Of a DNA stretch of 64,000 nt, positions 21,348 to 36,600 are shown one piece after another. Within the stretch, counting starts at the first letter, position 1; each line of letters starts with the position of its first letter. The position numbers and the translations under genes are program-made. The notes beneath the pieces are model-generated. The model saw nothing but the letters and a program-made list of their open reading frames with translations. It had not been told where the DNA came from and searched no databases. Source of the stretch: Bacteriovorax sp. BSW11_IV (lineage in GTDB: Bacteria > Bdellovibrionota > Bacteriovoracia > Bacteriovoracales > Bacteriovoracaceae); the NCBI RefSeq assembly GCF_000447755.1, contig NZ_AUNE01000052.1:1-64000 (forward strand), in the 5' to 3' direction.

Positions 21348-21722
21348 TTAGATATCTAATAGTGAGATAGCTTCTTCTGTAGTAGCATCTAAATAAAGGT
21401 TCTTAACAACTTCTGTTGATAGAAAATCATCATGCTCGACTTCTAAAGAAAAAGTGCGTCCAGAGTTTTTGAATGTTGATAGATCACCTTTTTGAGCTTT
21501 AATTAGAAACTCTTTACTTAGGTTGCTCTCTGGTGCAATCTCTTTGATTACTTTTTGAAGTCTTTTTTTATCAATCTCGCTATTAATTCTAAAGTAGGCA
21601 GGAATTAGTTTGTTTGTGTCACTTTCTTTAATTCTAATTGAAAGACTTACTGATGTACCTTGGTTTGAAACTCTAATTTCATGCAATGTACCAGTTGTTT
21701 TACGTGATTGTGATTTTGACAT
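21348..21722 (-). CDS. Unknown small protein of the replication arm
   Basis: 124 residues, starts with AGGAG before the ATG. The N-terminal half is beta-rich and basic (SRKTTGTLHEIRVSNQGTS, then LSIRIKESDTNK); the C-terminal half is acidic. No family recognised. Its position directly before the ATPase gene suggests a role in element replication, for example DNA binding. Confidence 0.6.
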   Translation of the reverse strand: MSKSQSRKTTGTLHEIRVSNQGTSVSLSIRIKESDTNKLIPAYFRINSEIDKKRLQKVIKEIAPESNLSKEFLIKAQKGDLSTFKNSGRTFSLEVEHDDFLSTEVVKNLYLDATTEEAISLLDI

Positions 21723-21838
21723 AATTTTCTCCTGTCATAGTTAATTCTCTAACTTGTTTTAGAGATCTAACTAGTTACGATAGGAGAAAAGGTTTTTCAG
21801 AATTTTAGTTGTGGAGCCTGTTGACCTCCACGAGGTCT

Positions 21839-23284
21839 TTAACTATTTGATAAGTCGTAGAGATCAACTTTTTTGACCAATGAGATATCTTTCTTTAGAG
21901 AAGCTATTAGTTGATTTTGTAGTGTTATTAAAAGGTTTTCATTTCCCTTGAGTCGTTCAAATGATGATATAACGATATTGTTGAGATGTTGGTATCGGTG
22001 TGAATCGTTAAAATAATCTTCAAATAAATCATATAAATCTTGAGGGTAAAATGAGAAATGAGATGCGTTTACTTCAAAAATTACCATTGATAGAAGTTCT
22101 GCTTTTGCTTCTCGATCGAGAGGATATCTTAAGTTTTTTTCATATAAATTTGTAAGTTCTGTAGTTAGGTCTTGTATCGTTTGTGGTGAAATTGTGCTTA
22201 TTTCTAATATGACAGGAGCAATAATGTTGAATATTGTTTTTAATGCACATTGATGAGATGCGCTTGATGATGAGTAATTGAAGTAGAATGAAACTTGCAC
22301 TTTATCAAATAGTGATTTGCTAATTATATTTGTCATCTTATTAAGCGCTTGGTCTATTGTTGATTTCCAAACTGAAACTCTTTCATCACTTGGTTCTTGT
22401 TGTCTATTTTTATGAAGATGTTCTAAGATTTTATTTCTGATAAAAGAAGATAGTTTATGCTGAAGCTCATGAAATTTTGATTCATTTTTAAGCTCTAAGA
22501 ATAGTCTTGTTCTTTTGTTATCGTTCCATATTCCATCAATAATGCCACTTAATTCGAAGAAAGATGTATAAGAGTCAATGGAAAATGTACTAGTTTCTGT
22601 TATGTTGAGCCAAAGATCAATGTAGTTTTTCGTTCTAGTTTTTAGAATATTTAGATAAAAAGGAGAAACGCACACACCCTGAATGATTGAGTTTGTTGAA
22701 ATAACTTGATCATCGTGCATCTCTTGAATAAAGCTTTCAATTAGTTCTCTCTCTTGCTTGTTAATATTAAGTAGTTCTAATAATCCCTCATGATCCTCAA
22801 ATTGATCTGAAACGACTGGGCTTTGGCTAGCTTGTCCAATAAGATTAATTTTACTTATATAGTTATACTTTGAGTCTAGATCGAAATGTTTGATAAGCTG
22901 AAATTGATTTGAGAGGCGTAAATTTAAAACTTCTATTAGTTTATTTAAGGGGACTTTCTTTAATAAAGATATTGCGTACAAGAGATACAGGGCATCAAGA
23001 TAGCCTGGAAAGGGAACCTTTGTGTTTTTTAAGAAGTCTGCTTGAGAAATACGAAACTTTTTGTTGTCCATGAAGTTTGCAAACCAGTCGGGTTTACTTT
23101 CAAGCTCACGATCTTTTAATTCTATATGTCTAACAATAGTCTGAATTTCATTTTTGTAATGTCTTGATGTTAACAATTGCTTAAGTAGAAGACAGAACTC
23201 ACCTGCCGGATTTGTTTCTCGCTGATTATCGACTCTGCGTAAAGCATTTTTTAGATTAGTTCTCAGTTCTTTAACTGTCTTCAT
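21839..23284 (-). CDS. Unknown 481-residue helical protein, first gene of the left arm
   Basis: Helical, hydrophilic, no signal peptide or membrane segment and no motif I can name. GAGGT precedes the ATG. It begins the leftward arm from the divergent promoter region at 23.3-23.5 kb. About 116 bases separate it from the next gene. Could be a replication initiator by position, but the sequence gives no positive support. Confidence 0.6.
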   Translation of the reverse strand: MKTVKELRTNLKNALRRVDNQRETNPAGEFCLLLKQLLTSRHYKNEIQTIVRHIELKDRELESKPDWFANFMDNKKFRISQADFLKNTKVPFPGYLDALYLLYAISLLKKVPLNKLIEVLNLRLSNQFQLIKHFDLDSKYNYISKINLIGQASQSPVVSDQFEDHEGLLELLNINKQERELIESFIQEMHDDQVISTNSIIQGVCVSPFYLNILKTRTKNYIDLWLNITETSTFSIDSYTSFFELSGIIDGIWNDNKRTRLFLELKNESKFHELQHKLSSFIRNKILEHLHKNRQQEPSDERVSVWKSTIDQALNKMTNIISKSLFDKVQVSFYFNYSSSSASHQCALKTIFNIIAPVILEISTISPQTIQDLTTELTNLYEKNLRYPLDREAKAELLSMVIFEVNASHFSFYPQDLYDLFEDYFNDSHRYQHLNNIVISSFERLKGNENLLITLQNQLIASLKKDISLVKKVDLYDLSNS

Positions 23285-23544
23285 TATAACCTCTGTGAGT
23301 TGTAAAGATCATTTTATTTTTACCAAATAGGAAAAAAATAGGCAAGAGAGCAAGAGGCAAGACGTTAATGACGATTGTGACGACAGATACTAATCATTTT
23401 ATGAGAGATGAAAAATTTCAAAAATAAATTTCAGATTTCGAAAAATCCGACTCTTCGCACCTAGATTGGTGTCATTTGAAAACATACCCAGGAAGTCTTC
23501 TTTGTTTCGAGGTACCGGGGTCGTTTATCTAAAAGGAGGATTTT
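23285..23544. promoter_or_regulatory. Divergent control region of the element
   Basis: A 260-base gap between the two arms of the element. It holds the second GACG triple array (23361-23387), an inverted repeat CACC-tagatt-GGTG near 23459-23472, and the AAAGGAGG ribosome site of the rightward gene. Promoters for both arms must lie here; I cannot assign them confidently. It is also the best candidate for a replication origin. Confidence 0.5.
23361..23387 (+). repeat. Three 9-bp GACG iteron-like units (copy B)
   Basis: GACGTTAAT, GACGATTGT, GACGACAGA at exact 9-base spacing. The first unit is identical to the middle unit of copy A. Confidence 0.65.
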
Positions 23545-24816
23545 ATGACTTCATCTATTAAACCAGTAAAAGAAATTCAAATTAACTTAAGCGAGGAGGA
23601 AACTATGCTTAGTAATGAACTAGAAGAGATTTTATGTGAGTTTTTTTATGTTTTACCGGAAGAAGGAACACAAGATTTCCTTGATGAGAGGTTTATTTAT
23701 GACCTTGCAGATGAAAAAGAGATTGAAAGAAGGATTAAGCAAGATCAGGATTGGCTTTCACAGGGTGAACCTGAAGTAGAGGAATTGGCAAAGTTAGAGG
23801 AGTTAGCAACAAGCTACTTTGAATCACCGACTAAGGTTTCTTACCCGAAGGAAGAGGTTCAAGAGTATGTAACTGGTTATGTACAATTTTTATCTGGAGT
23901 TGAGTTTACTAAAAATGGAGATGCTGTTGAAAAGTGGAAAGCAATTGGAAGTAAGGTTCAAGTAGGTACGAGCAAGATTTTAGACCCAGAGGGCTTAACC
24001 GTTTATCTGAAATTAAAAGGAATCGAACTATGTAAAACAACACGCATTGTTTTTTATGGGTTGCCTTTAAGTGAAATTGTTGGCTCTAGAATCTACAGAA
24101 AAGGAGAGCGTAAAAAGTTAACTCCTTTATCCAGTGATTATCAGAATATCTTACTTGCTATACCGGATTATGAAGCTTGTTCAGGAATGGAGAAGAGTAT
24201 TTATGACTCAATTGATAGCTTAATCAAAGAAGAGGTTTTGTATGGAACTGACTTGATGATAGATAGAGTAGCTCTGGGCCACTGGGAGATGACTAAGGCA
24301 AGATTAGAAGAGCTAAAAGCTGAAGAAGAAGAGAATCGTAACATTCATAAAATCCAGAGAATAGAAAAGAAAGTAACTCAGACAAAAAATGAATTTGATG
24401 AAAAGTTTAAAGAGGCAAGAGGGTTCATTGATAAACTTAATAAGAAGGAAGCGTCTTTTAATGACATTGAGAAGGAAAGTATTGAGTTGATTAAACAGGT
24501 TCTTTGGTTAGCAGAGAAGAAGGGGGAAAGAATTGAGGATAAGATTACATACTTCAAGTTGAAATCTCTTTACAGGAAATTAAAGTCAGATGAGCTTTTG
24601 AGTAATGGTGGAGTTAATGCATTAAAGTTCATTCAAAATGTTAATGATGGTGATCTCGTTGAAGTTCATTTACTTAGCTTAGATGAATTACAACAAATTA
24701 TGGATGTATTATGGAGTGGATGTCTTAGAATTAATCCAATGTATAAACAGACTTACTTCTCATTAAAAGAGAGATATCAGCACTTAAAAAGGGTTGAGGA
24801 ATTAAAGGCTGCATAA
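23545..24816 (+). CDS. Unknown acidic protein, first gene of the right arm
   Basis: 423 residues behind a strong AAAAGGAGG site. Rich in Glu and Lys; residues about 255-330 are a probable coiled coil (long charged helix). No signal peptide, membrane segment or known motif. It leads the rightward arm opposite the replication arm, so it may be an element control or partner protein; function unknown. Confidence 0.65.
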   Translation: MTSSIKPVKEIQINLSEEETMLSNELEEILCEFFYVLPEEGTQDFLDERFIYDLADEKEIERRIKQDQDWLSQGEPEVEELAKLEELATSYFESPTKVSYPKEEVQEYVTGYVQFLSGVEFTKNGDAVEKWKAIGSKVQVGTSKILDPEGLTVYLKLKGIELCKTTRIVFYGLPLSEIVGSRIYRKGERKKLTPLSSDYQNILLAIPDYEACSGMEKSIYDSIDSLIKEEVLYGTDLMIDRVALGHWEMTKARLEELKAEEEENRNIHKIQRIEKKVTQTKNEFDEKFKEARGFIDKLNKKEASFNDIEKESIELIKQVLWLAEKKGERIEDKITYFKLKSLYRKLKSDELLSNGGVNALKFIQNVNDGDLVEVHLLSLDELQQIMDVLWSGCLRINPMYKQTYFSLKERYQHLKRVEELKAA

Positions 24817-24866
24817 GCTCCGCTACCGCTCCGCATTTCGCTAACGCTCAATGAATTCTCAGGCTA

Positions 24867-24957
24867 TCGCCATTCGAATATAACAGCACAGCTGTGTCAA
24901 ACAATCGCCATAAGGCGAATCATAAAACATTAATTTATGAATAATTGGCTTCGCCAT
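24867..24957 (+). repeat. Three TCGCCAT repeats and hairpins upstream of ssb
   Basis: TCGCCAT occurs at 24867, 24905 and 24951. The middle copy forms a hairpin TCGCC-ataa-GGCGA (24905-24918), and ACAGC/GCTGT form another nearby. This is locally GC-rich compared with the element. Could be a leader, operator or nicking/transfer site; undecided. Confidence 0.4.
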
Positions 24958-24996
24958 TTAGGGCAAAGCTATATCAACAAACGTATGGAGGTATGT

Positions 24997-25329
24997 ATGT
25001 TTAGTAATACTATTTTAGTTGGACGATTAGGAAGTGATCCTGAATTGAAAAGAACTCAAAAGGGTGACTTTATTTGTAGTTTCTCTGTGGCCACGAATGG
25101 GAAATGGTTGAGCAATAATGGTCAAGAAGAGGAGAAGGTTACATGGCATAAAGTTGTTTGTTGGAATAAGCTAGCTGAACTTTGTTCTAGTTATCTGGCA
25201 AAAGGAAGACTAGTTCTTGTTGATTGTGAGATTGTTAAAAACTCATGGGAAGACAAGGATGGTAATAAACATGAGTCATGTGAGGTTAGAGCAAAAAGAG
25301 TTCTATTTTTAGATTCTAAAGATAAATAA
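24997..25329 (+). CDS. ssb: Single-stranded DNA-binding protein
   Basis: 110 residues, one OB-fold: MFSNTILVGRLGSDPELKRT, then the WHKVVCWNKLAE and LVDCEI strands typical of SSB. It lacks the long Gly-rich tail and the acidic DDDIPF-type C-terminus of chromosomal SSBs, ending instead in LDSKDK. The start at 24997 follows GGAGGT with only four bases between. A longer frame begins 20 codons upstream but adds nothing SSB-like. Supports element replication together with the ATPase. Confidence 0.9.
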   Translation: MFSNTILVGRLGSDPELKRTQKGDFICSFSVATNGKWLSNNGQEEEKVTWHKVVCWNKLAELCSSYLAKGRLVLVDCEIVKNSWEDKDGNKHESCEVRAKRVLFLDSKDK

Positions 25330-25373
25330 CTGAGGTCTATTCTTTAGCATAGGAGGTGTTATGGGAATAAAGA

Positions 25374-25556
25374 GTGAAGCAAAGTAATGAGCTATGTATG
25401 GAACTGTTGATCTATAGAGCAGTTCCATATCTTACTGTTCAAGTTGTACGTAGATATCCACTTGTTGGAATTGGATTAATTGTTACTGGAGCAATTATTG
25501 AAATTAATCGAATTAGGAAGAAGAAAAATAGCTTGTTAGTGAGATTCATACAGTAA
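25374..25556 (+). CDS. Possible small single-pass membrane protein
   Basis: 60 codons from a GTG, with one hydrophobic helix (YPLVGIGLIVTGAIIEI) followed by basic residues. The nearest strong ribosome site, AGGAGG at 25351, actually serves an 8-codon frame starting at the ATG at 25361 that ends TAATGA at 25385, so expression could be by re-initiation. Weakly supported. Confidence 0.35.
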   Translation: MKQSNELCMELLIYRAVPYLTVQVVRRYPLVGIGLIVTGAIIEINRIRKKKNSLLVRFIQ

Positions 25557-25575
25557 TTAGAATAGATTTCAGTTT

Positions 25576-25599
25576 CCCCTAGTTCCGACTAGGGGTTTT
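25576..25599 (+). terminator. Terminator-like hairpin before the zinc-ribbon gene
   Basis: CCCCTAG-ttccga-CTAGGGG followed by TTTT; the short T run makes it weak. Confidence 0.55.
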
Positions 25600-25610
25600 A
25601 TGGAGAGATT

Positions 25611-26054
25611 ATGAACGAAGAATTTCTAGAGAAATTGAATGAGATTGCTTTTCAGAAAAGTGAACCGTTCTGTTATGGATGCTATGTCATTTGTCCTTCC
25701 GGTAGATGTAGTAAATGTGGCAGTGATGACTTAATGAGACATCTAGATGGTGTCGGTGTTGAATGGGGAACGGACTGGATAATTAAAGAGCTTCTTTTAG
25801 ATATAGATGAAGTTGATCAAGAAGAAAGTTTTGATGAATATTTAGAGTCAGCTTATGAACAAGAATGTTCTGTAGCCTGGTTAAAGGTAGAGACATTGAG
25901 GATATTAAAAGAGCTTTGTGAATGTGATTACAGGATTGCACTTAATGATTGGATATCCTCTGAGGAAGAAGATGGTGAGATTGTAAGTTTTAATAATGGT
26001 GTAACTTATTACAAAGTTTCAGCAGTGAAAGAATATATTAAAGAAAACAGTTAG
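25611..26054 (+). CDS. Zinc-ribbon protein typical of mobile elements
   Basis: 147 residues. Near the N-terminus CYGCYVICPSGRCSKCGSDD gives two C-x2-C pairs, a zinc ribbon. The remainder is acidic, with GVGVEWGTDW and a late ISSEEEDGEIVSFNNGVTYY. From memory, proteins of this layout are common small hypothetical genes on plasmids and integrative elements of proteobacteria; their function is unknown to me. GGAGA precedes the ATG. A CCCGC-gaa-GCGGG hairpin follows the stop. Confidence 0.75.
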   Translation: MNEEFLEKLNEIAFQKSEPFCYGCYVICPSGRCSKCGSDDLMRHLDGVGVEWGTDWIIKELLLDIDEVDQEESFDEYLESAYEQECSVAWLKVETLRILKELCECDYRIALNDWISSEEEDGEIVSFNNGVTYYKVSAVKEYIKENS

Positions 26055-26079
26055 CCCCCCGCGAAGCGGGAAGGAGTTA

Positions 26080-26691
26080 ATGATGGAAAAGATAATTGCA
26101 ATTTACTGTAGGACCTCGACTAGTTTACAGGAAAACGGTTTACAGTCGCAGAGAAGGGCTCTGATTGAATACTGTAAAAGTCGAGGACATAAGAACTATG
26201 TTGTTTATGAAGACTTTGGAATATCTGGTGCAATAAAATCACGCCCAGCCTTGAATGAAATGATGGATAGAGTTGATAAGGGAGAAGTGGATATTGTTAT
26301 AGTTTATAGTTTTTCAAGATTTGCTAGATCAATGAAGCATCTTCTTGAGGCGCTAGATGTATTTAAGGAAAAAGGAACTGAGTTTATCAGTATAAGTGAG
26401 AATATTGATACAACATCAGCAGTAGGGAGTTTGATATTTCGAATACTGGCAAGCTTAAGTGAGTTCGAGCGGCAGTTAATATCTGAAAGAGTAAAAAATG
26501 GAATGATTAATGCAAAAGCTAAAGGGAAGCAAATTGGAAGGAGGAAAGAGAGACCAACAGATTCAATTCTGGAGTTGCGAAGAAAAGGGTTCACTTATAA
26601 GCAGATAAGTAAGTTATTAAATGTCTCTGAGGGAACAGTATGCAATGCTGTTAGGGATGGATTACTCAAGAATAAAAATAAAAAACCTTAG
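26080..26691 (+). CDS. Small serine resolvase/invertase
   Basis: 203 residues. Catalytic Ser13 in YCRTSTSLQENG, then the YEDFGISG, SFSRFARS and ASLSEFERQLISERVKNG segments of the resolvase/invertase family. A C-terminal helix-turn-helix follows (ILELRRKGFTYKQISKLL). AAGGAG precedes the ATG. It is distinct from the large integrase at the left end. It may resolve dimers or invert or stabilise the element; no inverted pair of target sites was recognised. Confidence 0.92.
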   Translation: MMEKIIAIYCRTSTSLQENGLQSQRRALIEYCKSRGHKNYVVYEDFGISGAIKSRPALNEMMDRVDKGEVDIVIVYSFSRFARSMKHLLEALDVFKEKGTEFISISENIDTTSAVGSLIFRILASLSEFERQLISERVKNGMINAKAKGKQIGRRKERPTDSILELRRKGFTYKQISKLLNVSEGTVCNAVRDGLLKNKNKKP

Positions 26692-26888
26692 TGAGTAAAA
26701 GCTTTAACTCATTAAGGAAATGGTAATTGAGTACCAAATTCGATGCTACACCAGGAATAAAAAGAACATTTTAAAAATAATAACAGAAAGGTAAGTACTT
26801 TAAACTTAGAGAGAAAATAGACTTTATCATCTAGATTGTACAGTAATTCACGAAACGTGGATATTTTAGGTACAAAAAGGAGAAAAAA

Positions 26889-27245
26889 ATGAAAAATAAT
26901 TTTACCGATATTACGTATTATTCAATTGGAGCTTTAGGAGTAGGTGCTGTGATACTTGGAGGAACTGTCGCCAATGGCATATTTGTTGGTGGGATGAGTA
27001 CTCTAGGAGTCGCTCTTTTATTAATTAAGCTAAAGGATAGCAACCCAAGAATATTCTACTGGATTTTAAAACATAATATTATGTCTGACCTAATTTTATC
27101 AGTTCTTCTTGTTATGCTTATGGGGACAAGTACAGTTACAGCAATAATAAGTGGAGCATCAGCAGCATTATTTTGTTCTGCTGGATTAACATATCTAAGT
27201 AAGCTTTTTGTTAAGAATTCAGAATCTAGTCAAATAGTGTCATGA
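26889..27245 (+). CDS. Small membrane protein
   Basis: 118 residues with three or four hydrophobic segments (YYSIGALGVGAVILGGTV, GGMSTLGVALLLI, LILSVLLVMLMG, ASAALFCSAGLTYL). AAAAGGAGAAAAAA precedes the ATG. No family recognised. It precedes the XRE regulator and may belong to the same module. Confidence 0.6.
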   Translation: MKNNFTDITYYSIGALGVGAVILGGTVANGIFVGGMSTLGVALLLIKLKDSNPRIFYWILKHNIMSDLILSVLLVMLMGTSTVTAIISGASAALFCSAGLTYLSKLFVKNSESSQIVS

Positions 27246-27324
27246 TTAGAGAAATAAGTGTCCAGATATGGGATAAATCTAATTAAATCTTGAACAGTTA
27301 GTAAAATATTCTTTGAGGTTCATT

Positions 27325-27627
27325 ATGGAGTTTAAAGAAAGACTAGCATTTCTTATTGAAGAAAAAGGGACAAATATGTCTGCCGTTTCAAAGGCGACTG
27401 GTATCCCTCGCTCTTCACTTCATAATTATCTACTCGGTACCGAAGTCGGATTGAGTAAATTAATCATACTTGCAGACTTTTTTAGTTGTAGTTTGGACTT
27501 CTTGGTATTTGGAGCTTCTGAAGGAACTCTGGATGATGAATTAGAAGTTGTTCAAGCTGAAATTAAATCTCAAGGACTATATGAAATTGTTTTAAGGAAG
27601 AAAAAGATTAAAAAGGAGTCGGAGTAA
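27325..27627 (+). CDS. XRE-family transcription regulator
   Basis: 100 residues. An N-terminal Cro/C1-type helix-turn-helix (MSAVSKATGIPRSSLHNYLLG) is followed by a short charged tail. The ATG at 27325 has TGAGG at the right distance. The stop overlaps the next ATG by one base (TAATG), so it is translationally coupled to the downstream membrane protein. Likely represses the element's own lipoprotein/membrane module. Confidence 0.82.
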   Translation: MEFKERLAFLIEEKGTNMSAVSKATGIPRSSLHNYLLGTEVGLSKLIILADFFSCSLDFLVFGASEGTLDDELEVVQAEIKSQGLYEIVLRKKKIKKESE

Positions 27628-28082
27628 TGAGTATTAAAAATGGAGTCGGAAGGAAGGGGTACATATTATCTATATTCCCTGGTTTGCTAATAACTTTAGC
27701 ATTGAGTGCTGTTACGTTCTACATGCATGCTAAAGATGTCATGGAGATAATTCACCGCGATCGACTAGAAGATATCATAAATTGGTTGTTGTATTTTGGG
27801 CCGAGAGATGGTCACCCATTGGCAACTCATTTCTGGGGAATAATAGGTATCACCGTTGCTGTATTTTTTATACTTTTCATCGGTATGTCTTACTTAAGAA
27901 TGAAGGATATGGCAGGAGAATCATTCCAGATAAAGAACTTTGGATTAATTATATTTGCCTTGGTCGTAAATTTCTTTTTTAGTAAGAAATTATTTATTGT
28001 TTTATTCCTGGTAATTATAGCTGTTCTATCAATCGTTGCAAAAAAGAAAGGCTTATCTCAAACAGCAAAGCAAGAATCATAA
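27627..28082 (+). CDS. Multi-pass membrane protein
   Basis: 151 residues with about four hydrophobic helices (ILSIFPGLLITLALSAVTFYM, GIIGITVAVFFILFIGMSYL, NFGLIIFALVVNFFF, FIVLFLVIIAVLSIVA). Coupled to the XRE gene by TAATG. No family recognised. Confidence 0.65.
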   Translation: MSIKNGVGRKGYILSIFPGLLITLALSAVTFYMHAKDVMEIIHRDRLEDIINWLLYFGPRDGHPLATHFWGIIGITVAVFFILFIGMSYLRMKDMAGESFQIKNFGLIIFALVVNFFFSKKLFIVLFLVIIAVLSIVAKKKGLSQTAKQES

Positions 28083-28099
28083 AAATATTGGAGGACAGT

Positions 28100-28690
28100 A
28101 TGAAATTATTGATTAGTATGATGATCTTAGGTGTATTTACATCTTGTGCAAGTAGACCATTTAAAGCGGAAAGCGAAGAGAACGATAAAATGATGTCTCA
28201 CCTAAGCCAAGGCGTGAAGTATTCTAATGGAGAGTTTCCGGACAGGTTCAATGATAATGGAATTCGCGATGGTTACGTATGGGGAGTTGGTAAATCAATC
28301 TATCCTATTGAAAAAGGAGTGCAGGTTGCTGAAGAGGCTGCGAAGTCCAATGCAAAGTTTGACTTAATTAATATGGCACCAACAATGATGGAGAGCCTAG
28401 TTAAAAAAATTATTTCAAGTGAGAGTGGAGAGTTTCAAGATTTCTCAAAGGAAGATATTTCAATCACTAAAATTAAAAACTTAACAGGAATTCAAGTCTC
28501 TGCAAAAGATACAATGTGTAAAACGAGAACAGAACCAGTAACTGGACCAGAGAAATATAAGATTTCTAGAGAGTGCAGAAGTGTAGCGAAAGTACGACTA
28601 AGTGACATGCGAGCAGCATTTGATTTTACACTTTCAGATAGATTATTAGCGAAGGTTGATAAGAAGAAAATACTTAGATCTATGGAATAA
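28100..28690 (+). CDS. Lipoprotein, LPP20-like
   Basis: 196 residues. Short signal peptide with lipobox GVFTSC. Then DGYVWGVGKSIYP and VAEEAAKSNAKFDL, which resemble the GVG and AxxxAxxxAxxxL elements of LPP20-type lipoproteins. GGAGG lies before the ATG at 28100. First of three successive lipoprotein genes in the element. Confidence 0.7.
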   Translation: MKLLISMMILGVFTSCASRPFKAESEENDKMMSHLSQGVKYSNGEFPDRFNDNGIRDGYVWGVGKSIYPIEKGVQVAEEAAKSNAKFDLINMAPTMMESLVKKIISSESGEFQDFSKEDISITKIKNLTGIQVSAKDTMCKTRTEPVTGPEKYKISRECRSVAKVRLSDMRAAFDFTLSDRLLAKVDKKKILRSME

Positions 28691-28707
28691 GAACAAAAGG
28701 TGCACTC

Positions 28708-29643
28708 ATGAGATTACTTATGTTGTTTTACATATTTGTTATTTCAGGGTGCTCTATGCTTAAACCATGGAAGCAACCGGAGCTACCACTTGTTCCTGGA
28801 AATAATACGTCATTAATAAATATTATAGAGAAAGGATTATCGGAAAAGAAGCTTGAAAAGATAGCTGAAAGTAAAGACATAAATAAAGATGTTGGTGGTG
28901 GTTGTGTGAGTTCTGATACTGGTTTTAACTTTGTAGGACTTAATCATTATGAAGTAGGTTATTATAGGCATTTAATATTTGGTTCAGAGAATACTAGTAT
29001 GATGCAAGTGAATAAAAGAGTTTCTAATTCAAAAGTTCAAAGCACAAAAAATAATATTAATCAGATTAATATGGAGATAAAGAGTGTTCCTTGTTTTATG
29101 AAACGAGACGGAAAGTATGTTTTTGTTAGAACAGAGTTATACCTTAACGAAAAAATATCCACGATACACGATAAGGTTTTGAGCAAAGATGCAGGAAAAT
29201 ATTTTGTGTTCTCTGGATTTAGATATAGATATTTACCAAAAAATCACTATATGTACCGATATGGGGATAGGAAAAAAGATGCGAGCCTTATTCCTGTTGA
29301 GGAGTATATGGAGGAGGCTGCTCATATGGTAGAAGTTGGTCAGATTAATAAAGATAAAAGTTATTCATGCATTAACTCTGATAAAACAGTGAATTATTTG
29401 GATATTGTTGAGGACTATACTGATTATTTTGATTATTTCTTCATTCCATCTGGTGAGATTATAACTTCTCAAATTAGGGAGCAAATCATAAGCGAGAAGT
29501 ATAATTCATATTATTATGAGTCTACACAAGTGCGTAGAGAAGGGATTAGACATGTTTGTTATAAGTGCTTACAAGAAGATCATGAAAAAGGTGTATGCAT
29601 TATTAAAAGAAGAGTTGTTTCAGTGTACCATCCTAATTTCTAA
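28708..29643 (+). CDS. Lipoprotein, paralog of the next gene
   Basis: 311 residues with signal peptide and lipobox VISGC. Contains a C-terminal half with VEEYMEEAAHMVEVGQINKD followed by a Ser-Cys; the downstream lipoprotein has the same QINKD-x3-SC element. Eight or so cysteines suggest disulfides in the envelope. No known family. Its 3' end overlaps the next gene by 62 bases. Confidence 0.7.
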   Translation: MRLLMLFYIFVISGCSMLKPWKQPELPLVPGNNTSLINIIEKGLSEKKLEKIAESKDINKDVGGGCVSSDTGFNFVGLNHYEVGYYRHLIFGSENTSMMQVNKRVSNSKVQSTKNNINQINMEIKSVPCFMKRDGKYVFVRTELYLNEKISTIHDKVLSKDAGKYFVFSGFRYRYLPKNHYMYRYGDRKKDASLIPVEEYMEEAAHMVEVGQINKDKSYSCINSDKTVNYLDIVEDYTDYFDYFFIPSGEIITSQIREQIISEKYNSYYYESTQVRREGIRHVCYKCLQEDHEKGVCIIKRRVVSVYHPNF

Positions 29644-30136
29644 TCTTATATTTCTTTCTTCATGCAGCAACTATAAAACATATGAGGTTCCACCATATAA
29701 CATACCTACATCTAACGAAGAGCTAGATATGTGCAGTATCGGAACTGGATACCGTATAAAAGAAAAAAGAACATTTATTGCAGATGAGTTGAGAAGGCCA
29801 ACTCAAAAAGAATTTGAAGAAGGCTTGGAGTTTCTTATAGCGACCAATCAGATAAATAAGGATCCACTGCTATCATGTTTTGACTCATTGTTTAGTATCA
29901 ACATTACTGGCTGTATTTTCGATTATGAGTCTGTATATTTGAAATATTTAATAGAAAATAGATTCGTGAAGCACCTAACAGCAGATGAAGTAAATGATAT
30001 GTTAGTTGCAAACCTAACAAAGCCTATTAATGCGTATAGCAGAATCCGTGATAATGAAAAAATTGTAGGGCGTTCATGTTGGAAAGTAATAAATGGAGCA
30101 AGGCATATATTTAATTCTTACCTAATTCGAAAGTAA
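29582..30136 (+). CDS. Lipoprotein, shares a motif with the preceding one
   Basis: 184 residues from the ATG at 29582, which has AAGAAG nearby. An unusually long signal sequence ends in the lipobox FLSSC. EEGLEFLIATNQINKD then SC matches the upstream lipoprotein's QINKD-x3-SC segment. Unknown family. The 62-base overlap with the preceding gene suggests coupled translation, though a longer frame from an ATG at 29516 is possible. Confidence 0.6.
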   Translation: MKKVYALLKEELFQCTILISNLIFLSSCSNYKTYEVPPYNIPTSNEELDMCSIGTGYRIKEKRTFIADELRRPTQKEFEEGLEFLIATNQINKDPLLSCFDSLFSINITGCIFDYESVYLKYLIENRFVKHLTADEVNDMLVANLTKPINAYSRIRDNEKIVGRSCWKVINGARHIFNSYLIRK

Positions 30137-30151
30137 AAAAGGAGGTAGGTT

Positions 30152-30436
30152 ATGGATGTTACTTTGATGAGGCTTGCTCTGTGCATAGATAAAGAGATAT
30201 CCAGTATTGATCTTGAAAAAGAGACGATTAGTGAAGTTTGTGTGGAATCAGCTCTAATGTTATTTGATAAACTTAATAAGAGGGATGAGAAGTTGGTTAA
30301 GCTTGCCAATAAACTTCATTTGAGGTGTAGTGAGGCGAAGAGGGTTTTTAATCGAAATCCTACGGAAATCACTGAACATAATTACAATTCTTTAATCCTA
30401 ATAGGTTTAACATTAGAGATGACATTTTTGCTTTAA
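30152..30436 (+). CDS. Small unknown protein
   Basis: 94 residues behind AAAAAAGGAGGTAGG, a very strong ribosome site. Helical and charged in the first two thirds, hydrophobic at the C-terminus (SLILIGLTLEMTFLL). Last gene of the lipoprotein run. The following 195 bases hold no gene I can support and probably carry the promoter of the restriction-modification block. Confidence 0.6.
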   Translation: MDVTLMRLALCIDKEISSIDLEKETISEVCVESALMLFDKLNKRDEKLVKLANKLHLRCSEAKRVFNRNPTEITEHNYNSLILIGLTLEMTFLL

Positions 30437-30631
30437 TAAAATGTGTGTATTTACTGGTGTTGAAGTATTTGAAGAATAAAAGGGAAACAATATTTTTTAT
30501 CATGATGAGCGGCGTTAAGGTGGCAGCTGTTTCTAGAAAGTGTTTTTTTAATGCGTCACGTTGCTGTTGTAGGGCTTAAAGTAGTGGTATTTTCGGTATT
30601 ACAGCTTCGTAATTATTTAGTTAATTACTAG

Positions 30632-31120
30632 ATGCAGCATGACATTCCTTACCTGGTATCATACTATTTTGGTATGGGACAACAATTATCAAAAGTAAAT
30701 TTAGCAAACTGCTTAGAGAGCTTAGATGCTCTATATGACTACCTTAATTCATGGAGTGAAATAAAAAACTCATTCAGAATTGATGGGGTTGAAAATATTA
30801 GCCCAGCAAACCCATCTCAATGGATATTTTTCAAAATTGAAAATTTTGAAAAAGTGTCTTTTGACGGCGTTGAGAAGTCTGGGGTTTCATGCGATGGTAC
30901 AAGCTGGAATGGCACCTACTATCTTTCAGGGGGAACTCGTTCTAAATCATTGTTAGAATTTTTAAATTTATATGAAAAGTATGATGGTAACCCAAATAAG
31001 ATTTTTAATCTGGCTTACACTAGTGGAAAAGAGGGTTTTCCAAACAAGAGAAGAATTGAGTTAAATGATTACAAGGAACCTGGTTGGAATTGTCTAAAAT
31101 ATAGAGCAAATAACTATTAA
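30632..31120 (+). CDS. Unknown protein upstream of the methyltransferase
   Basis: 162 residues. The ATG at 30632 directly follows an in-frame TAG and lacks a clear ribosome site, so the true start may be the Met 14 codons on. Soluble, with several Trp and aromatic residues and a Gly-Thr-rich centre (GTSWNGTYYLSGGT). No family recognised. Only 8 bases separate it from the cytosine methyltransferase, so it is presumably part of the restriction-modification operon. Confidence 0.65.
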   Translation: MQHDIPYLVSYYFGMGQQLSKVNLANCLESLDALYDYLNSWSEIKNSFRIDGVENISPANPSQWIFFKIENFEKVSFDGVEKSGVSCDGTSWNGTYYLSGGTRSKSLLEFLNLYEKYDGNPNKIFNLAYTSGKEGFPNKRRIELNDYKEPGWNCLKYRANNY

Positions 31121-31128
31121 GGGGATGC

Positions 31129-32256
31129 ATGGAAACTGCTATAAATAAAATTTTAAAATCGAAGAAGTCAAAAGAATTAACTCTAAGGTATGGAGAGTTT
31201 TTTAGTGGACCAGGTGGGCTAGGTTTAGGAGCATCTAAGGCATCTCTAGAGGTTGATGGGATTAAAGTGTCATTTGCTCATGAGTGGGTTAATGATATCG
31301 ATTTAGACTCATGCCATACATATTATAAAAATGTAATGAAAGATCATGGAAAAACTTTTCATGGTGACATTAGGGAGTTCGACTTTAATAAATTGACTCC
31401 GGTAGATGCATTTGCTTATGGCTTTCCATGCAATGACTTCAGCATCGTTGGAGAACATAAGGGTTTTAATGGTGAATATGGACCACTTTATACTTATGGC
31501 ATTAAAGTATTGAATAAATTTAATCCAGTGTTTTTTTTAGCGGAAAATGTTGGAGGTCTTGCTAGTGCAAACCAAGGAAAAGCTTTTAAAGCAATCTTGT
31601 CTGATTTATCTCAGGCTGGTAAGCACGGTTACGACATTGTACCTCACTTATACAAGTTTGAAGAGTATGGTGTTCCTCAAGCTAGGCATAGAATAATTAT
31701 GATTGGCATTAGGAGGGACTTAGGTGTTAGGTTTAAGGTGCCTAGACCAACGCATAATTCAACAAACTTTGTTACTTCGTTGGACGCAATAAATAAGCCT
31801 CGAATAAAGAAAGATGCCCATAATAATGAATTAACAAAACAATCAGCTCAAGTTATAGAGCGACTTAAGTATATAAAACCAGGGAAAAATGTTTGGGACT
31901 GCGAAGATGATATGCCTGAACATTTAAGGATCAATAGTAAGAAAACACGATTAAGCCAAATATATAAAAGGTTAGACCCGAATAAGCCATCTTATACAAT
32001 TACTGGTAGTGGCGGAGGTGGTACTCATGGCTATCACTGGGATGAAGATAGGGCTTTAACTAATAGGGAAAGAGCTAGGCTACAAACTTTTCCAGATGAT
32101 TTTGTTTTTGAGGGCAGTAAAGAGAGTGTTAGGAAACAAATAGGTATGGCTGTTTCTCCTAAAATGGCAGAGATTCTATTTAACTCTGTTTTAAAGTGTC
32201 TTGCAGGAGTTGAATATCCATCAATAAATGCTAGGTGGGAAGATTGGGATCAATAA
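31129..32256 (+). CDS. DNA (cytosine-5) methyltransferase
   Basis: 375 residues with the ordered C5-methylase motifs: motif I FFSGPGGLGLG (AdoMet), motif IV AYGFPCNDFS with catalytic Cys101, motif VI ENV (139-141), motif VIII QARHRIIMIG, a target-recognition stretch, and motifs IX/X RERARLQTFPDDF. AdoMet-dependent methylation of cytosine in a specific site. It lies in an element with an AlwI-family endonuclease and should protect that enzyme's site. The recognition sequence cannot be read from the protein. Confidence 0.93.
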   Translation: METAINKILKSKKSKELTLRYGEFFSGPGGLGLGASKASLEVDGIKVSFAHEWVNDIDLDSCHTYYKNVMKDHGKTFHGDIREFDFNKLTPVDAFAYGFPCNDFSIVGEHKGFNGEYGPLYTYGIKVLNKFNPVFFLAENVGGLASANQGKAFKAILSDLSQAGKHGYDIVPHLYKFEEYGVPQARHRIIMIGIRRDLGVRFKVPRPTHNSTNFVTSLDAINKPRIKKDAHNNELTKQSAQVIERLKYIKPGKNVWDCEDDMPEHLRINSKKTRLSQIYKRLDPNKPSYTITGSGGGGTHGYHWDEDRALTNRERARLQTFPDDFVFEGSKESVRKQIGMAVSPKMAEILFNSVLKCLAGVEYPSINARWEDWDQ

Positions 32257-32257
32257 G

Positions 32258-32860
32258 CTATTCTAGTTGTTTAGAGTAGTAGGAGTGTAGGAGGTGTATC
32301 CTCTTTTTGTTTTCCCCTGCTTTGAATTTGATTCCATCAAGTTTTTTCTTGTAGTTGATTTTGATATTTTTACTTTTTAGTAAATTTCTCATTTGGACTT
32401 GAGTTGGAGCCAGTTTGTTAGGGATCTTACACCTAAAGATTTTCCATTTGTCTTTAAATGGTTCCAGCAGGTTTAATGAGATATTATCTCTTTTTACGGC
32501 TTGAATAAAACTTGAGGGAACAACATAGGTTGAATTCGTATTAAATGAATAAACAATAACAACATCACAATCCTTTCTGGTTATGAGTTGAGGTTTAACC
32601 TTATCTTTTTGAATTTGTTGACCACTCCTTGTACCAGTTGTTACATTGACAGAGGATGTTGAAGTTGTTTTTACAGAGCATCTAAATAGGGTGCCATCGT
32701 GATCAAGAATTAGATCATATTTAGAGTCTCGCCAGGCTTGTATGTATATCATGTAGCCAGCATACATTGCTAATCCACTAATAATGGACTCACCAGCATA
32801 GCCTTTTAGGCTTCTGAAGCTTCCGTCTGGAAGCTTTGTAAGGTTTTGAAATTTCTTCAC
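32258..32860 (-). CDS. PD-(D/E)XK-like putative nuclease
   Basis: 200 residues. YAGESIISG (Glu24), YDLILD (Asp49) and CSVKTTS (Lys64) are spaced like small PD-(D/E)XK nucleases of the kind ending in V-K-T, although the residue two before Lys is Ser rather than Glu or Gln. The rest is basic with a C-terminal Lys-rich segment. It is transcribed against the methyltransferase (1-base gap) and divergently from the AlwI-type gene (68-base gap). Could be a second nuclease subunit, a nicking enzyme or an inactive control protein. Confidence 0.6.
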   Translation of the reverse strand: MKKFQNLTKLPDGSFRSLKGYAGESIISGLAMYAGYMIYIQAWRDSKYDLILDHDGTLFRCSVKTTSTSSVNVTTGTRSGQQIQKDKVKPQLITRKDCDVVIVYSFNTNSTYVVPSSFIQAVKRDNISLNLLEPFKDKWKIFRCKIPNKLAPTQVQMRNLLKSKNIKINYKKKLDGIKFKAGENKKRIHLLHSYYSKQLE

Positions 32861-32928
32861 TGTTACTCAACTTTTTTTTTTGTTTACCGATTAGATCGTC
32901 ATAATATTTAATTAACTTTAGGGATGTT

Positions 32929-34557
32929 ATGGCGGTTCATATAGATGGTTGTAGACGTTTGTGGATGTTTCCGAGAAATATTCGAAAAATTCATCCATGG
33001 AAGATATCTCAATTAGTCTCTATATTTAATGAATTAAATAGAAACTCTGAGTATGAGTGGCATGGAAAACAAGATATTCAGGATCGATTTTGCAAGCTAC
33101 TGGAAGAGACAGGCTTAAAAAGAGTAGGCGATCAATATGATCCAAAAAGTGGTGGACCGAGAACCTATTACAAGCAACTGGAACTGTTAGGTTTAGTTTT
33201 TACAAAGCCAGATAAAACAATTCATTTAACGATTGCTGGAGAAAAAATACTTAATGGAGAGCCTCCTGTTTCAATTCTTCAAAGAATGCTTCTGAGGCTT
33301 CAATACCCCTCTGTTTATAGTAAGAGTATGAATGTTAAGATAAATCCTGATATTAAAGTTAGGCCTTTCGAATTTGTGTTAAAACTTTTAAGAGATCCAA
33401 GGATAGAGTATTTAAAAAGCGATGATTTTTCTATACCAGTAATATGGGGACATAGTGATTCAGATTTAGAATTATGTATTCAGAAAGTTTTAAAGATTAG
33501 GAGTGGTAAACTGGAAATATCAGACCTGATTGATGATAAAGACTTATTATACACTCATAAAACAGTTGGTAGAACAATAGAGAATGCATTAGTTGATGTG
33601 AAAGATATTGGGAATACGTGCAAAAACTATTTGCAGTCATGTGGGCTTATTGCAGAATTTGATAAAAGCATTTTTGCGACAAATGTAAAAGTTTATTGTG
33701 CTACAGAATACTCATTAAATCTTTTAAAAGAGATAGAGGGAACTGGCTATATAGATAGCAATGTCTCAGATGAAGCATTTCAAAGAGAGTTTGGAAAACT
33801 AAATAATAAAAGGGATACAAGGGTATTGCTTGGCAGGAGTGTTGAGGTTGCAAAGAAGGACCCTGAGTATCTTCAAATTAAAAGGTCATTATTAAAAATT
33901 ATTTCTGAGACAGGTGCTGAATTTGATAAATCACAATTTATATCATTAATGAAGAATGAATATGGTTTTGCTGACACAAAGATTGAAAAAGTTTTAGATG
34001 ATTATTTTAAAGATTCACGTTCTAGTTATGAGGAGAGGTTGATTGAGGTCTCTACCGGAGGGATAAAGACAGCAAATGAGTTTGAAAAAATTGTCACTTC
34101 GATCTTTGGTGGTATCTTAGACTTTAAAGCCTCCCATATCGGTCAAAAGCATCGTAGTGCGGGAACAGGTGCTTATACAGATATAATTGTAGATATATCA
34201 GGTGAAGAAATCGTGCTAATTGATACTAAAGCGTCGCCATCTTATTCTTTGGGCTCTAATGATTTCGCCAAAATAAGCTCAAACTATATTAAAAATTATA
34301 AAGAATTACGACCGTCATCTTCTTTGAATTCATTTGGAGTTGTTGCAGGGGGGTTTAAAGGAAATGTTGAAAGTCGGTTGAGAGAAATTAAAGAGTTAAC
34401 AGGAGTACCTGCGTTTGCTATTACAGCTTCAGCTCTTGTTCGGTTGTCGAGCTATATTGAAAATAAGACTTTTGGAAAGGCAGATATTTTGAGATTGTTT
34501 TCTTCTTGTAGTGTCATAACAATATTAACTCTTGCTGAAGAGTTTGGTGATGTTTGA
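32929..34557 (+). CDS. AlwI-family type IIS restriction endonuclease
   Basis: 542 residues. The N-terminal 150 residues follow the AlwI/MlyI/Nt.BspD6I DNA-recognition layout: an RRLWMFPRNIRKIHPW opening, a GLVF and LTIAGEKILNGEPP stretch, and a ...QYPS... and PFEFVLKLL segment. The C-terminal nuclease has a PD-(D/E)XK core: Asp418 (TDIIV), then Asp432-Thr-Lys434 (LIDTKAS). Members cut a few bases from an asymmetric site, or nick it. Partner of the C5 methyltransferase. AGGGA lies upstream of the ATG. Sequence specificity unknown. Confidence 0.87.
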   Translation: MAVHIDGCRRLWMFPRNIRKIHPWKISQLVSIFNELNRNSEYEWHGKQDIQDRFCKLLEETGLKRVGDQYDPKSGGPRTYYKQLELLGLVFTKPDKTIHLTIAGEKILNGEPPVSILQRMLLRLQYPSVYSKSMNVKINPDIKVRPFEFVLKLLRDPRIEYLKSDDFSIPVIWGHSDSDLELCIQKVLKIRSGKLEISDLIDDKDLLYTHKTVGRTIENALVDVKDIGNTCKNYLQSCGLIAEFDKSIFATNVKVYCATEYSLNLLKEIEGTGYIDSNVSDEAFQREFGKLNNKRDTRVLLGRSVEVAKKDPEYLQIKRSLLKIISETGAEFDKSQFISLMKNEYGFADTKIEKVLDDYFKDSRSSYEERLIEVSTGGIKTANEFEKIVTSIFGGILDFKASHIGQKHRSAGTGAYTDIIVDISGEEIVLIDTKASPSYSLGSNDFAKISSNYIKNYKELRPSSSLNSFGVVAGGFKGNVESRLREIKELTGVPAFAITASALVRLSSYIENKTFGKADILRLFSSCSVITILTLAEEFGDV

Positions 34558-34611
34558 TAAATACGGCCAATAATTCCTTATGAAAGTTACACGCTAGGAA
34601 GTGGTAAGGGT

Positions 34612-34638
34612 GACGGTAATGACGGTAATGACGATCTT
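34612..34638 (+). repeat. Three 9-bp GACG iteron-like units (copy C)
   Basis: GACGGTAAT, GACGGTAAT, GACGATCTT at exact 9-base spacing, 145 bases inside the right end of the element. Confidence 0.65.
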
Positions 34639-34760
34639 TTATTCTTAACAAAGGCTTATATTTAATAATTAGGGATTCTCAATAACTTTGGGGATAATAG
34701 TTCTTTTTCAATAAGTATTTAAAATTATGAAAGTTGTGCAGTCTGATACCTAAGAATTGT

Positions 34761-34790
34761 AGTTCGATAAACTTCTACGTCGGGGCACCA
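34761..34790 (+). repeat. 30-bp tRNA-3'-end-like repeat, copy 1 (contains attR core)
   Basis: AGTTCGATAA, ten variable bases, then CGGGGCACCA. Same layout and length as copies at 35861 and 36571, and similar to the T-arm and 3' end of tRNA-Phe (GTTCGAT ... GGGCACCA). Confidence 0.65.
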
Positions 34791-34791
34791 T
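34783..34791 (+). repeat. Right attachment repeat (attR core)
   Basis: GGGCACCAT, exact copy of the tRNA-Phe 3' end sequence at 17787-17795; marks the right boundary of the element. Confidence 0.7.
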
Positions 34792-34829
34792 AAAAAACCA
34801 GATGTTTAACCCACATCTGGTTTTTTTTT
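34792..34829 (+). terminator. Probable original terminator of tRNA-Phe, now at the element's right edge
   Basis: AAAAAACCAGATGT-ttaaccc-ACATCTGG followed by nine T. It follows the attR core directly, so before insertion it would have lain just after the tRNA. Confidence 0.8.
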
Positions 34830-34902
34830 GCCTTTTTTTGAAATTGTGCAGAAAAAACACCTTTAGGTGGGAGCAACCTCGAAGCTCTGTGTAAAATCTT
34901 TT

Positions 34903-34938
34903 TACAGTTAGTATAAAAAGTATCATTCGCTAACTGTA
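34903..34938 (+). promoter_or_regulatory. Perfect 9-bp inverted repeat upstream of the metalloprotease-like gene
   Basis: TACAGTTAG and CTAACTGTA separated by 18 bases, ending 27 bases before the ATG at 34966. Fits an operator or leader stem. Confidence 0.4.
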
Positions 34939-34965
34939 TCTTCTAGTTGCATCTATTATACTGAG

Positions 34966-35853
34966 ATGAAATTACTCAAACTATGTTTAATCATAGGTAC
35001 ATTTATCTTTAGTCCATTAAGGTTCGCTTCTTATTTACAAGATAATGGTCGAATTGCATTGCAGTGGAGTAGCTACGATGAAGCTGATCTCATAAGTAAA
35101 GTGAAGTCGCTAGAGAGTGAAGTGGAAGATGAAGTCTTTTCCAAGTATTATCAGGATCTTCTTTCTAAATATAAGCATACTCCTTTTTATAAAAAGCTAT
35201 ATTTCTCTACTGTAGGTAAGGGGCTTCTTTCTCAAATCAATGAACTTATGCCTAAGACAATTGTATGTAAGGATTCTGTTGAAGAGTGCTTTAAAAAGGC
35301 CCTTATGTTTCATCGTGAAGATATTCTGTTAAGACTTATTTACATGCAGTCTAAATATCAAATTAATATGAGTAAGTTTTTGATGAGAAAGAATTGTGAT
35401 TACTGTGAGAATAAACAGATCGATTTTGAAAAAGAAGAACTAGATGCTTTTATTCTTGCGATGAAAATCATGCCTAAAAGATTTCATACTTATTTGATTG
35501 GTCGACCAATTACAATGATCAACGCTGATAATGGGCTCTATGGTAATGGGAAGTGGACTTTTTTCATCCAATGGCGATACTTAAATTTTATAGAAAAGAT
35601 TGGCCTAGCAATTCATGAGTTTTCCCATATCGTTGGAACCAAAAGTGATTTAGATTTTTCAAAAAAATGGCTTGAGCTATTTAGGCAATCAAGAGTGGCG
35701 GGCCCTTATGATGGTTTTATATCAGATTATGCGTACACAAACTTTGCCGAGGACTTTGCGGAGTCACTAACTTGCTTCATAGTCAGTCCTAAGCTTTTAA
35801 AAAAGCATTTACCTTCTAAATACGAATTTTTCAAAAACAGCTTCAAGTTTTAG
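34966..35853 (+). CDS. Secreted HExxH putative metalloprotease
   Basis: 295 residues with an N-terminal signal sequence (LCLIIGTFIFSPLRFAS). The zinc-binding motif HEFSH lies in AIHEFSHIVG near residue 218, with downstream acidic residues (FAEDFAESL) that could supply the third ligand. A CDYC pair precedes it. Probably an envelope or secreted peptidase of no named family. It lies just outside the element, between two copies of the tRNA-like repeat, and shares its terminator type. Confidence 0.72.
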   Translation: MKLLKLCLIIGTFIFSPLRFASYLQDNGRIALQWSSYDEADLISKVKSLESEVEDEVFSKYYQDLLSKYKHTPFYKKLYFSTVGKGLLSQINELMPKTIVCKDSVEECFKKALMFHREDILLRLIYMQSKYQINMSKFLMRKNCDYCENKQIDFEKEELDAFILAMKIMPKRFHTYLIGRPITMINADNGLYGNGKWTFFIQWRYLNFIEKIGLAIHEFSHIVGTKSDLDFSKKWLELFRQSRVAGPYDGFISDYAYTNFAEDFAESLTCFIVSPKLLKKHLPSKYEFFKNSFKF

Positions 35854-35860
35854 TATCGCA

Positions 35861-35890
35861 ATTCGATAAGTGCCCACATCAGGGCACTAA
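35861..35890 (+). repeat. 30-bp tRNA-3'-end-like repeat, copy 2
   Basis: ATTCGATAAG, then TGCCCACATC and AGGGCACTAA. Aligned from 35861 it matches copy 1 at the TTCGATAA and GGGCAC-A positions with identical spacing. Confidence 0.55.
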
Positions 35891-35891
35891 G

Positions 35892-35925
35892 AAAAAACCA
35901 GATGTTAATCCACATCTGGCTTTTT
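35892..35925. terminator. Terminator almost identical to the one at 34792
   Basis: AAAAAACCAGATGT-taatcc-ACATCTGG-CTTTTT. The stem is the same as that at 34798-34820. It serves the upstream gene and, on the other strand, the convergent gene ending at 35928. Confidence 0.8.
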
Positions 35926-35927
35926 AT

Positions 35928-36374
35928 CTAAACTTCAAATTTTTCAAACTTTATACTTTCTCTGTTCTCAATTCTTTTTAAAATTCGTTCAAAAGCTTCT
36001 TGATCTTTTGGAGAAGTCCAGTCATTACCAATTTTTATTAAATCAGGGTCATTAGAGTTTATTCCCAAGGCATTAATGTAATCAGTAGTGCAAATAAAAA
36101 AATGCTTTCGATAGGGTAAGAGAAAATGATCTTCCTTTAAATGCTTTATGGCATCAGTTTTACTTGAAAACCACGCTTTCCAGATTGCACTCCATCTAGG
36201 GGGATTTAAAAGATCAGAGATCACAATCATATCTTTCATCTCTTTCCAATTTGAGTATCCGGCGGCCTTTGCAATACTTGCGTATGCATCTTTTAAAGCA
36301 TAGTTTGGAGAGTTTTTTTTCTTTTGTAGAAGTTTGGCCTTAATTTTAATGGAGGCCAGGCTAGAATTATTCAT
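35928..36374 (-). CDS. Small protein with a glyoxalase-family-associated N-terminal motif
   Basis: 148 residues. The first 50 (SLASIKIKAKLLQKK ... ASIAKAAGYSNWKEMK) resemble the short helical domain that precedes some glyoxalase-superfamily proteins and occurs alone in small proteins. The rest is unremarkable, with several Trp. No enzymatic residues seen. Lies between repeat copies 2 and 3. Confidence 0.55.
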   Translation of the reverse strand: MNNSSLASIKIKAKLLQKKKNSPNYALKDAYASIAKAAGYSNWKEMKDMIVISDLLNPPRWSAIWKAWFSSKTDAIKHLKEDHFLLPYRKHFFICTTDYINALGINSNDPDLIKIGNDWTSPKDQEAFERILKRIENRESIKFEKFEV

Positions 36375-36570
36375 AACAAATCCTCTGATACCTACCGCCG
36401 ATTGTATCTTATGAATAATAATAAATTTTTTAGTGATACGGAGTGAGGTACTCTTTTGGCGGACAGGCTTCTCCGTGAAACCTTTTATATTATGTCATTA
36501 AATTAAAAATAAATGAAGATTTTTTTTCGCAACAAAAATTTAATAGGTTATGGCATCACTATTCACAGAC

Positions 36571-36600
36571 AGTTGGATAATTGGCCACGTCAGGGCACTA
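36571..36600 (+). repeat. 30-bp tRNA-3'-end-like repeat, copy 3
   Basis: AGTTGGATAA, TTGGCCACGT, CAGGGCACTA: same length and layout as copies 1 and 2, and overlapping by 3 bases the stop of the WYL regulator gene. Confidence 0.55.

Follow-up and report, generated by a model that had tools for sequence, protein, structure and literature searches.

The region downstream of the tRNA-Phe gene of Bacteriovorax sp. BSW11_IV contains three similar short repeats, which raises the question as to whether they are copies of the tRNA 3' end left by successive insertions, or sites of a different kind. In the window (the whole 64,000-nt stretch of DNA that was analysed), the 30-bp repeats of equal length that an earlier note had placed at 34761, 35861 and 36571 are real, and correspond to three ungapped 28-nt sequences, all on the + strand, at 34763-34790, 35862-35889 and 36573-36600 (start-to-start distances 1099 and 711; pairwise identities 20/28, 20/28 and 24/28). 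The first combines an arm (TTCGATAAACTTCTACGTCG) with the core GGGCACCA; the second, located by a pattern search of window and genome, also has length 28 and one mismatch in the core, and the third is the most degenerate. Repeats this short, two of them degenerate, could reflect chance or a genome-wide family without any tie to insertion, but the pattern has exactly three matches in the window vs. none in 100 shuffles, only the same three occur across the 3.65-Mb genome with up to 3 mismatches allowed (reversed control: none), so that the repeat is not widespread away from the tRNA, and the same motif recurs on the same strand and in the same place in 18 loci with tRNA-Phe. We therefore regard this explanation as exceedingly improbable.

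Direct copying of the tRNA, as proposed in the earlier note, fares little better. The resemblance to the tRNA-Phe 3' end holds for TTCGA and GGGCACCA, the only parts that are shared, and breaks down in the spacing, which is off by 5 nt: counted from the initial T of TTCGA up to and including CCA, the length is 28 nt in the repeat and 23 nt in tRNA-Phe. Because of this length difference we reject the repeats as tRNA 3'-end copies. A related alternative is that they are true duplications of the tRNA-Phe 3' end, the usual signature of tRNA islands with tyrosine integrases, which have since degenerated. The shared TTCGA and core would be expected in that case, and in many relatives agreement with tRNA-Phe extends over the last 13 nt, CGTCGGGGCACCA. 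However, a duplication should match the tRNA exactly over the whole stretch between crossover and 3' end, whereas just 8 nt of the window repeat do; the 5-nt difference is constant across ~47 sites that have conserved non-tRNA positions, including TATnGCAG before TTCGA; and the window tRNA has an integrase of the serine class next to it. Moreover, among the PF00589 matches listed there is no tyrosine integrase near tRNA-Phe arrays, except in genome G089, where it lies beside a tRNA-Leu. Degenerate tRNA duplications are thus very unlikely.

A large serine recombinase beside tRNA-Phe

The tRNA-Phe (gaa) gene, identified with ARAGORN, occupies 17719-17794 on the + strand, and its T-loop-to-CCA end (17772-17794) is the proposed left half of attB. 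Convergent to it, at 17699-19378 on the - strand, is a gene for a protein of 559 aa in the integrated state, the frame of which ends inside the tRNA, so that the last ~30 aa are antisense tRNA-Phe. On the grounds of its sequence and fold this protein is a large serine recombinase (LSR), with predicted attP x attB recombination activity. It has Resolvase (PF00239, 1.8e-13) and Recombinase (PF07508, 2.7e-9) Pfam domains and matches PHROG integrases (phrog_95). In 16 aligned sequences S12, R10, R86 and R89, which we take to belong to the N-terminal resolvase catalytic domain, are invariant, as are C294, C299 and C326. The structural model (mean pLDDT 83.4; pTM 0.41, making domain placement uncertain) has long helices at 363-443 and matches full-length LSR complexes and the Listeria LSR-DNA C-terminal domain structure 4kis (E 2.6e-11), which, together with the invariant cysteines, indicates a C-terminal zinc ribbon with a coiled coil.

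The LSR gene forms one end of a 16,996-bp unit (17795-34790) that ends with the first repeat, 17.0 kb from tRNA-Phe, and an element with the same layout is present in genome G141. We propose that this is the youngest inserted element, with the first repeat as its attR and the tRNA half plus a putative right arm, P', as its attL; P' would span 17795-17840 (+ strand, putative boundary) and includes a terminator-like stem. In the predicted attP, the P arm up to 34790 is followed by the sequence that starts at 17795. Within the element are a second, small serine recombinase of the invertase/resolvase type (26080-26691, + strand; Pfam and PHROGs) and a set of restriction-modification cargo at 31129-34557, comprising a C5 methyltransferase, a PD-(D/E)XK protein on the - strand and an endonuclease with a FokI-type cleavage domain. 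As a separate observation, the att core does not interrupt the LSR frame in either state (17699-19378 and 34590-34790): the tail is antisense tRNA when integrated, vs. a different tail of ~20 aa when joined to the P arm, and the same is seen in G141. The end of the protein would therefore change upon insertion.

To the right of this element, the two remaining repeats delimit two short units. Cassette 2 (34791-35889, + strand, 1099 bp) has a single + strand ORF at 34966-35853, and cassette 3 (35890-36600, + strand, 711 bp) a single - strand ORF at 35928-36374; neither ORF has a match in Pfam searches. The suggestion that the genes at 34966 and 35928 belong to older insertions is borne out, both being contents of integrase-less units. 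A scan to 42000 detected no further half-site right of 36600, and the segment 36601-39933, with a WYL regulator (- strand), an alpha/beta hydrolase, a GNAT acetyltransferase and a GFA-like ORF, is probably a decayed continuation of the array; the WYL-hydrolase pair abuts a half-site in G073 too. Similarity of the window to relatives resumes from 39934, which sets the variable region at ~17.8-39.9 kb.

Nearly identical terminator-like stems follow the first two repeats, as was noticed earlier, at 34798-34820 (CCAGATGT/ACATCTGG) and, by sequence inspection, at 35898-35919, both on the + strand. A genome-wide search for a second match to the stem at 34798-34820, with 3 mismatches allowed, returned none, and in genome G003 a homologous stem lies 3' of tRNA-Phe itself. 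Each insertion had been thought to leave a tRNA copy plus a terminator; the copy has to be dropped, and the terminators are best read as being carried at the left end of the inserted units.

Geometry of the proposed half-sites in independent elements

What, then, are the repeats? The A118 integrase targets a protein gene, unlike the tRNA here. According to the part of the work of Rutherford and colleagues available to us, the zinc-domain motif of serine integrases is shifted by 5 bp towards the centre in attB relative to attP, and the attP of the A118 family has a 25-bp half-site with the zinc motif at positions 16-24 (PMC3783163). The 28-nt repeat and the 23-nt tRNA end differ by this same 5-bp offset, and the pair thus fits attP and attB half-sites as far as they are described there (PMC3783163). 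Very probably, therefore, the repeats represent attP-arm half-sites that an LSR with tRNA targets has left by repeated insertion at tRNA-Phe, with older elements shrunk to integrase-less cassettes.

The half-site would be the element-side (P-arm) half joined to the 8-nt core in common with the tRNA. For the catalytic steps and the order of events we infer the following. The LSR would recognise the tRNA 3' end as attB via the T-loop sequence TTCGA, the putative zinc-domain motif, and its own attP via the same TTCGA 5 bp farther from the crossover, and would cut at some point within GGGCACCA. Insertion would then place the tRNA half plus P' at the tRNA, presumably bringing a terminator behind it, and the P arm plus core at the far end. 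If the attL-type site can serve again as a target, each new element would enter at this tRNA and displace its predecessors, so that P-arm half-sites build up 3' of the tRNA and on its strand; the displaced elements would lose the integrase and persist as short cassettes with a terminator at the start and a half-site at the end. To our knowledge, attL is not a target of textbook serine integrases, which do not recombine it with attP, and serial insertion would thus need relaxed recognition of the right half. The left half-site motif is clear in window-type elements. The sequence right of the core is poorly conserved, which suggests that the left half alone may set site identity. No matching inverted zinc motif was found in the right arm of window-type elements, this half being only T/A-rich.

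The proposed geometry recurs in independent elements. For 23 oriented LSR elements with a recognised tRNA, we searched downstream for the last 8 nt of the tRNA with TTCRA 20-38 nt from the end. In six of the 23, a copy at the far end retains the complete 8-nt core and has TTCGA at length 28, i.e. in those of the window and G141 (tRNA-Phe), G122 (tRNA-Glu), G118 and G019 (tRNA-Arg) and G055 (tRNA-Ala), and these half-sites carry the last 8-13 nt of the cognate tRNA. By comparison, exact-core matches at the 18 other spacings number three in total (Poisson 2.6e-8). The remaining 17 elements lack an exact length-28 end, some of their contigs ending early; they include G016 and G062, scanned over 100 and 74.6 kb, respectively, which have LSRs of the same family as the window. 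Seven tRNA/half-site pairs have 28 vs. 23 nt, equivalent to a zinc-domain motif 5 bp farther out in attP, and the consensus of 41 aligned sites, chosen from 47, is TnnAGTATnGCAGTTCGATAATCGnCnACGTCGGGGCACCA. Single elements of the window layout are found in G141, G122 and G118. The LSR of G141, 63% identical to that of the window, has one half-site ~30.6 kb downstream, and in G036, which has an LSR at tRNA-Phe as well, the contig ends close behind the LSR.

LSR loci were collected with alignment-based searches, which gave 22 loci in genome contigs and 6 in viral contigs; single-protein scans of the genome contigs, and of the viral contigs for a phage source, returned nothing. An LSR ORF end lies within 200 bp of a convergent tRNA or tmRNA 3' end for 21 of 31 LSRs, vs. 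9 of 572 control ORFs. Over all loci, serine integrases are located at tRNA-Phe, Leu, Arg, Glu, Ala, Val, Met, His, Asp, Asn, Ser and tmRNA. The other 10 of the 31 have no tRNA beside them. Of ten collected loci without an annotated tRNA at the LSR, L252-L254 have exact-length half-sites, L263 has none, L239, L243 and L260 are cut by contig ends, and the viral-contig loci L258, L259 and L262, in which the LSR adjoins just a weak TCGGA/TCCGA 28-mer, were not counted. In L253 and L254 the 28-nt half-site (TTCTA and TTCAA, respectively) is beside the LSR, where the tRNA would be. L252 is a tandem at tRNA-Ser: the LSR next to the tRNA is truncated, a second LSR directly adjoins a 28-nt half-site, and a third half-site comes after it; over the 15 nt compared, the right flank after the tRNA equals that after the internal half-site. 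This arrangement is the internal P-P' junction predicted by stacking.

A second group of tRNA-targeting LSRs is also apparent, in which an inverted CGAAC, read as a T-loop-like motif in the right arm, follows exactly 15 nt after CCA in 5 of 21 (L091, L096, L098, L106 and L254). Assuming the 5-bp offset, the crossover in this group would be 5 nt before the tRNA end, with T positions at 17/18 and 22/23; these fall within the A118 positions 17-19 and 22-24 given in the accessible text of PMC3783163.

Arrays in related bacteria

A motif model was scanned against 129 genomes, which are the whole set for the order and for the class alike, and has matches in 29 of them (E<=1e-5); matches at E 0.001-0.01, which include tRNA-Phe genes themselves, were left uncounted, and the pattern read backwards gave one match in 129 genomes. 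The fetched loci, which were chosen for the motif and also supplied the sites on which the weight matrix was trained, contain 76 sites above the weight-matrix cut, with 39 on 18 loci with tRNA-Phe and 37 on loci without it, some of the latter adjoining tRNA-Leu. All 39 sites on the tRNA-Phe loci are downstream of tRNA-Phe and on its strand, which upholds the idea of repeated insertion at one tRNA-Phe gene; the possible objection that relatives have the order tRNA-repeat-repeat with no insertion fails on the same count. In several genome pairs, upstream synteny breaks off 1-10 bp beyond the 3' end of the tRNA (2 bp for G093/G094; 1 bp for G082/G083). Within one genus, tRNA-Gly is ~60 nt behind tRNA-Phe in G094 vs. 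6 kb in G003, with a half-site in between (L179 9761-9974, L056); G094 has a degenerate site beyond tRNA-Gly and is thus not a clean empty site.

The motif is present in 7 of 8 genomes with an LSR or LSR remnant at tRNA-Phe vs. 22 of 121 others (p = 1e-4). Most array genomes are without an intact window-type LSR, and C-terminal LSR remnants are located beside tRNA-Phe in G076, G079, G092 and G027 and, in G148, within the array itself, pointing to decay. The 60 bounded intervals, from 26 genomes, have a median length of 1.4 kb, and 28 are at most 1.2 kb; since the closest tRNA upstream, whatever its type, was taken as the left edge, a few intervals (those at tRNA-Met in G110 and tRNA-Thr in G115) may be something other than true first cassettes. 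Single-ORF intervals of at most 1.2 kb number 23, with 19 read in the direction of the tRNA, and in single-ORF intervals the stop codon precedes the half-site by a median of 22 nt. Among the cargo are GFA, glyoxalase, GrpB, ORF6N, GNAT, DUF2283/DUF4258 pairs, PIN-domain proteins and, below the Pfam cut-off, a HigB-like protein; toxin-antitoxin-like pairs recur, and homologues of the cargo are found in other genomes beside different neighbours. Finally, 20 of 1622 alignment ends are within 10 bp of a site, vs. 0.3% by chance.

These short intervals mostly read with the tRNA, the recurrent cargo in different neighbourhoods and the alignment ends would also suit an integron-like addition to our explanation, with one-gene cassettes inserted and excised in trans by the LSR and the half-site acting as attC. 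On the other hand, neither a circular form nor a precise presence/absence pair was seen, half-sites diverge within arrays, and the LSR remnants point to decay, making this addition doubtful. Active, integron-like trans-mobilisation of the cassettes is nevertheless possible. More specifically, one might tentatively envisage a serine-class counterpart of the integron in Bacteriovoracales, in which tRNA-Phe would provide a constant attB behind which single-gene cassettes with an attP half-site at their end are captured and stacked, with the LSR working in trans. Under such a scheme an LSR family reading the near-universal T-loop TTCGA as its zinc-domain motif could give rise to related enzymes that switch among tRNA and tmRNA targets.

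Comparison with known systems

We return to the preferred reading, in which attP-arm half-sites accumulate by repeated insertion. The nearest match in the text available to us is provided by the ssrA-specific (tmRNA) islands of Dehalococcoides (PMC3146451). That text describes tandem islands only downstream of one tDNA, with a serine recombinase (DsiB, 540 aa) overlapping attL and, immediately before each direct repeat, a conserved motif; 15 islands that lack an integration module are interpreted there as cis-mobilizable elements and accretion (PMC3146451). Like these islands, the arrays reported here (window, L252) are tandem and lie between the tDNA and repeats of its end, the LSR being at the tDNA-proximal end. 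As far as the source describes them, the Dehalococcoides islands differ in target (tmRNA vs. tRNA-Phe and many other tRNAs here), in their 20-bp repeat with a 15-bp upstream motif (vs. an 8-13-nt core and a 28-nt half-site arising from the 5-bp shift), and in their six-gene module dsiB-dsiA-recF-parB-mom-polymerase, where the window has a second small serine recombinase at 26080, non-adjacent (PMC3146451). In the portion of the open-licence PMC literature available to us, this tmRNA case is the sole exception found, and here serine integrases stand at many tRNAs. Very small cassettes are also unlike the Dehalococcoides islands; together with the tRNA targets and the half-site explanation, they are what sets the present arrays apart from known tandem serine islands. 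As a side observation, LSRs of the same phylum also end against the tmRNA gene (L083, L095, L099, L100, L123 and L250), in parallel to Dehalococcoides.

SCC elements of staphylococci use Ccr serine recombinases at the rlmH 3' end and form composite arrays that include recombinase-less members. The present arrays are similar in having serine recombinases, the 3' end of a conserved gene and a composite structure, but differ in target and in having one LSR plus a tRNA gene rather than a recombinase pair. Integron gene cassettes are short, mostly one-gene, same-strand units that end in a recombination site and carry toxin-antitoxin-like cargo. The short one-gene units described here, ending in a putative recombination site and with similar cargo, resemble them; site and enzyme, however, are serine-class, and with the exception of G089 (at tRNA-Leu) the PF00589 matches listed include no IntI beside tRNA-Phe arrays. 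By membership the arrays are thus not an integron, yet they may work like one. CIMEs and ICE/IME accretion likewise involve units that lack a recombinase and are stacked, each between att sites, next to the 3' end of a tRNA, but the tandem tRNA cases in the accessible text of PMC5704250 use tyrosine integrases.

The 23 vs. 28 nt relation is a simple geometric rule that makes attachment sites findable from sequence, and opens up a class of islands that tools seeking tRNA-end copies could miss. The tRNA-directed serine integrases are candidates for testing as tools, and the tRNA-Phe locus suggests that a group known for its predators has a hotspot for the collection of genes. A further observation is that many of these genomes encode proteins of ~150-190 aa that match only the first half of the Recombinase domain (e.g. 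G007:C1 149278-161351; G017, with 10 matches; L059 7989-8447), some of them in rows, and that one such protein is inside a tRNA-Phe array.
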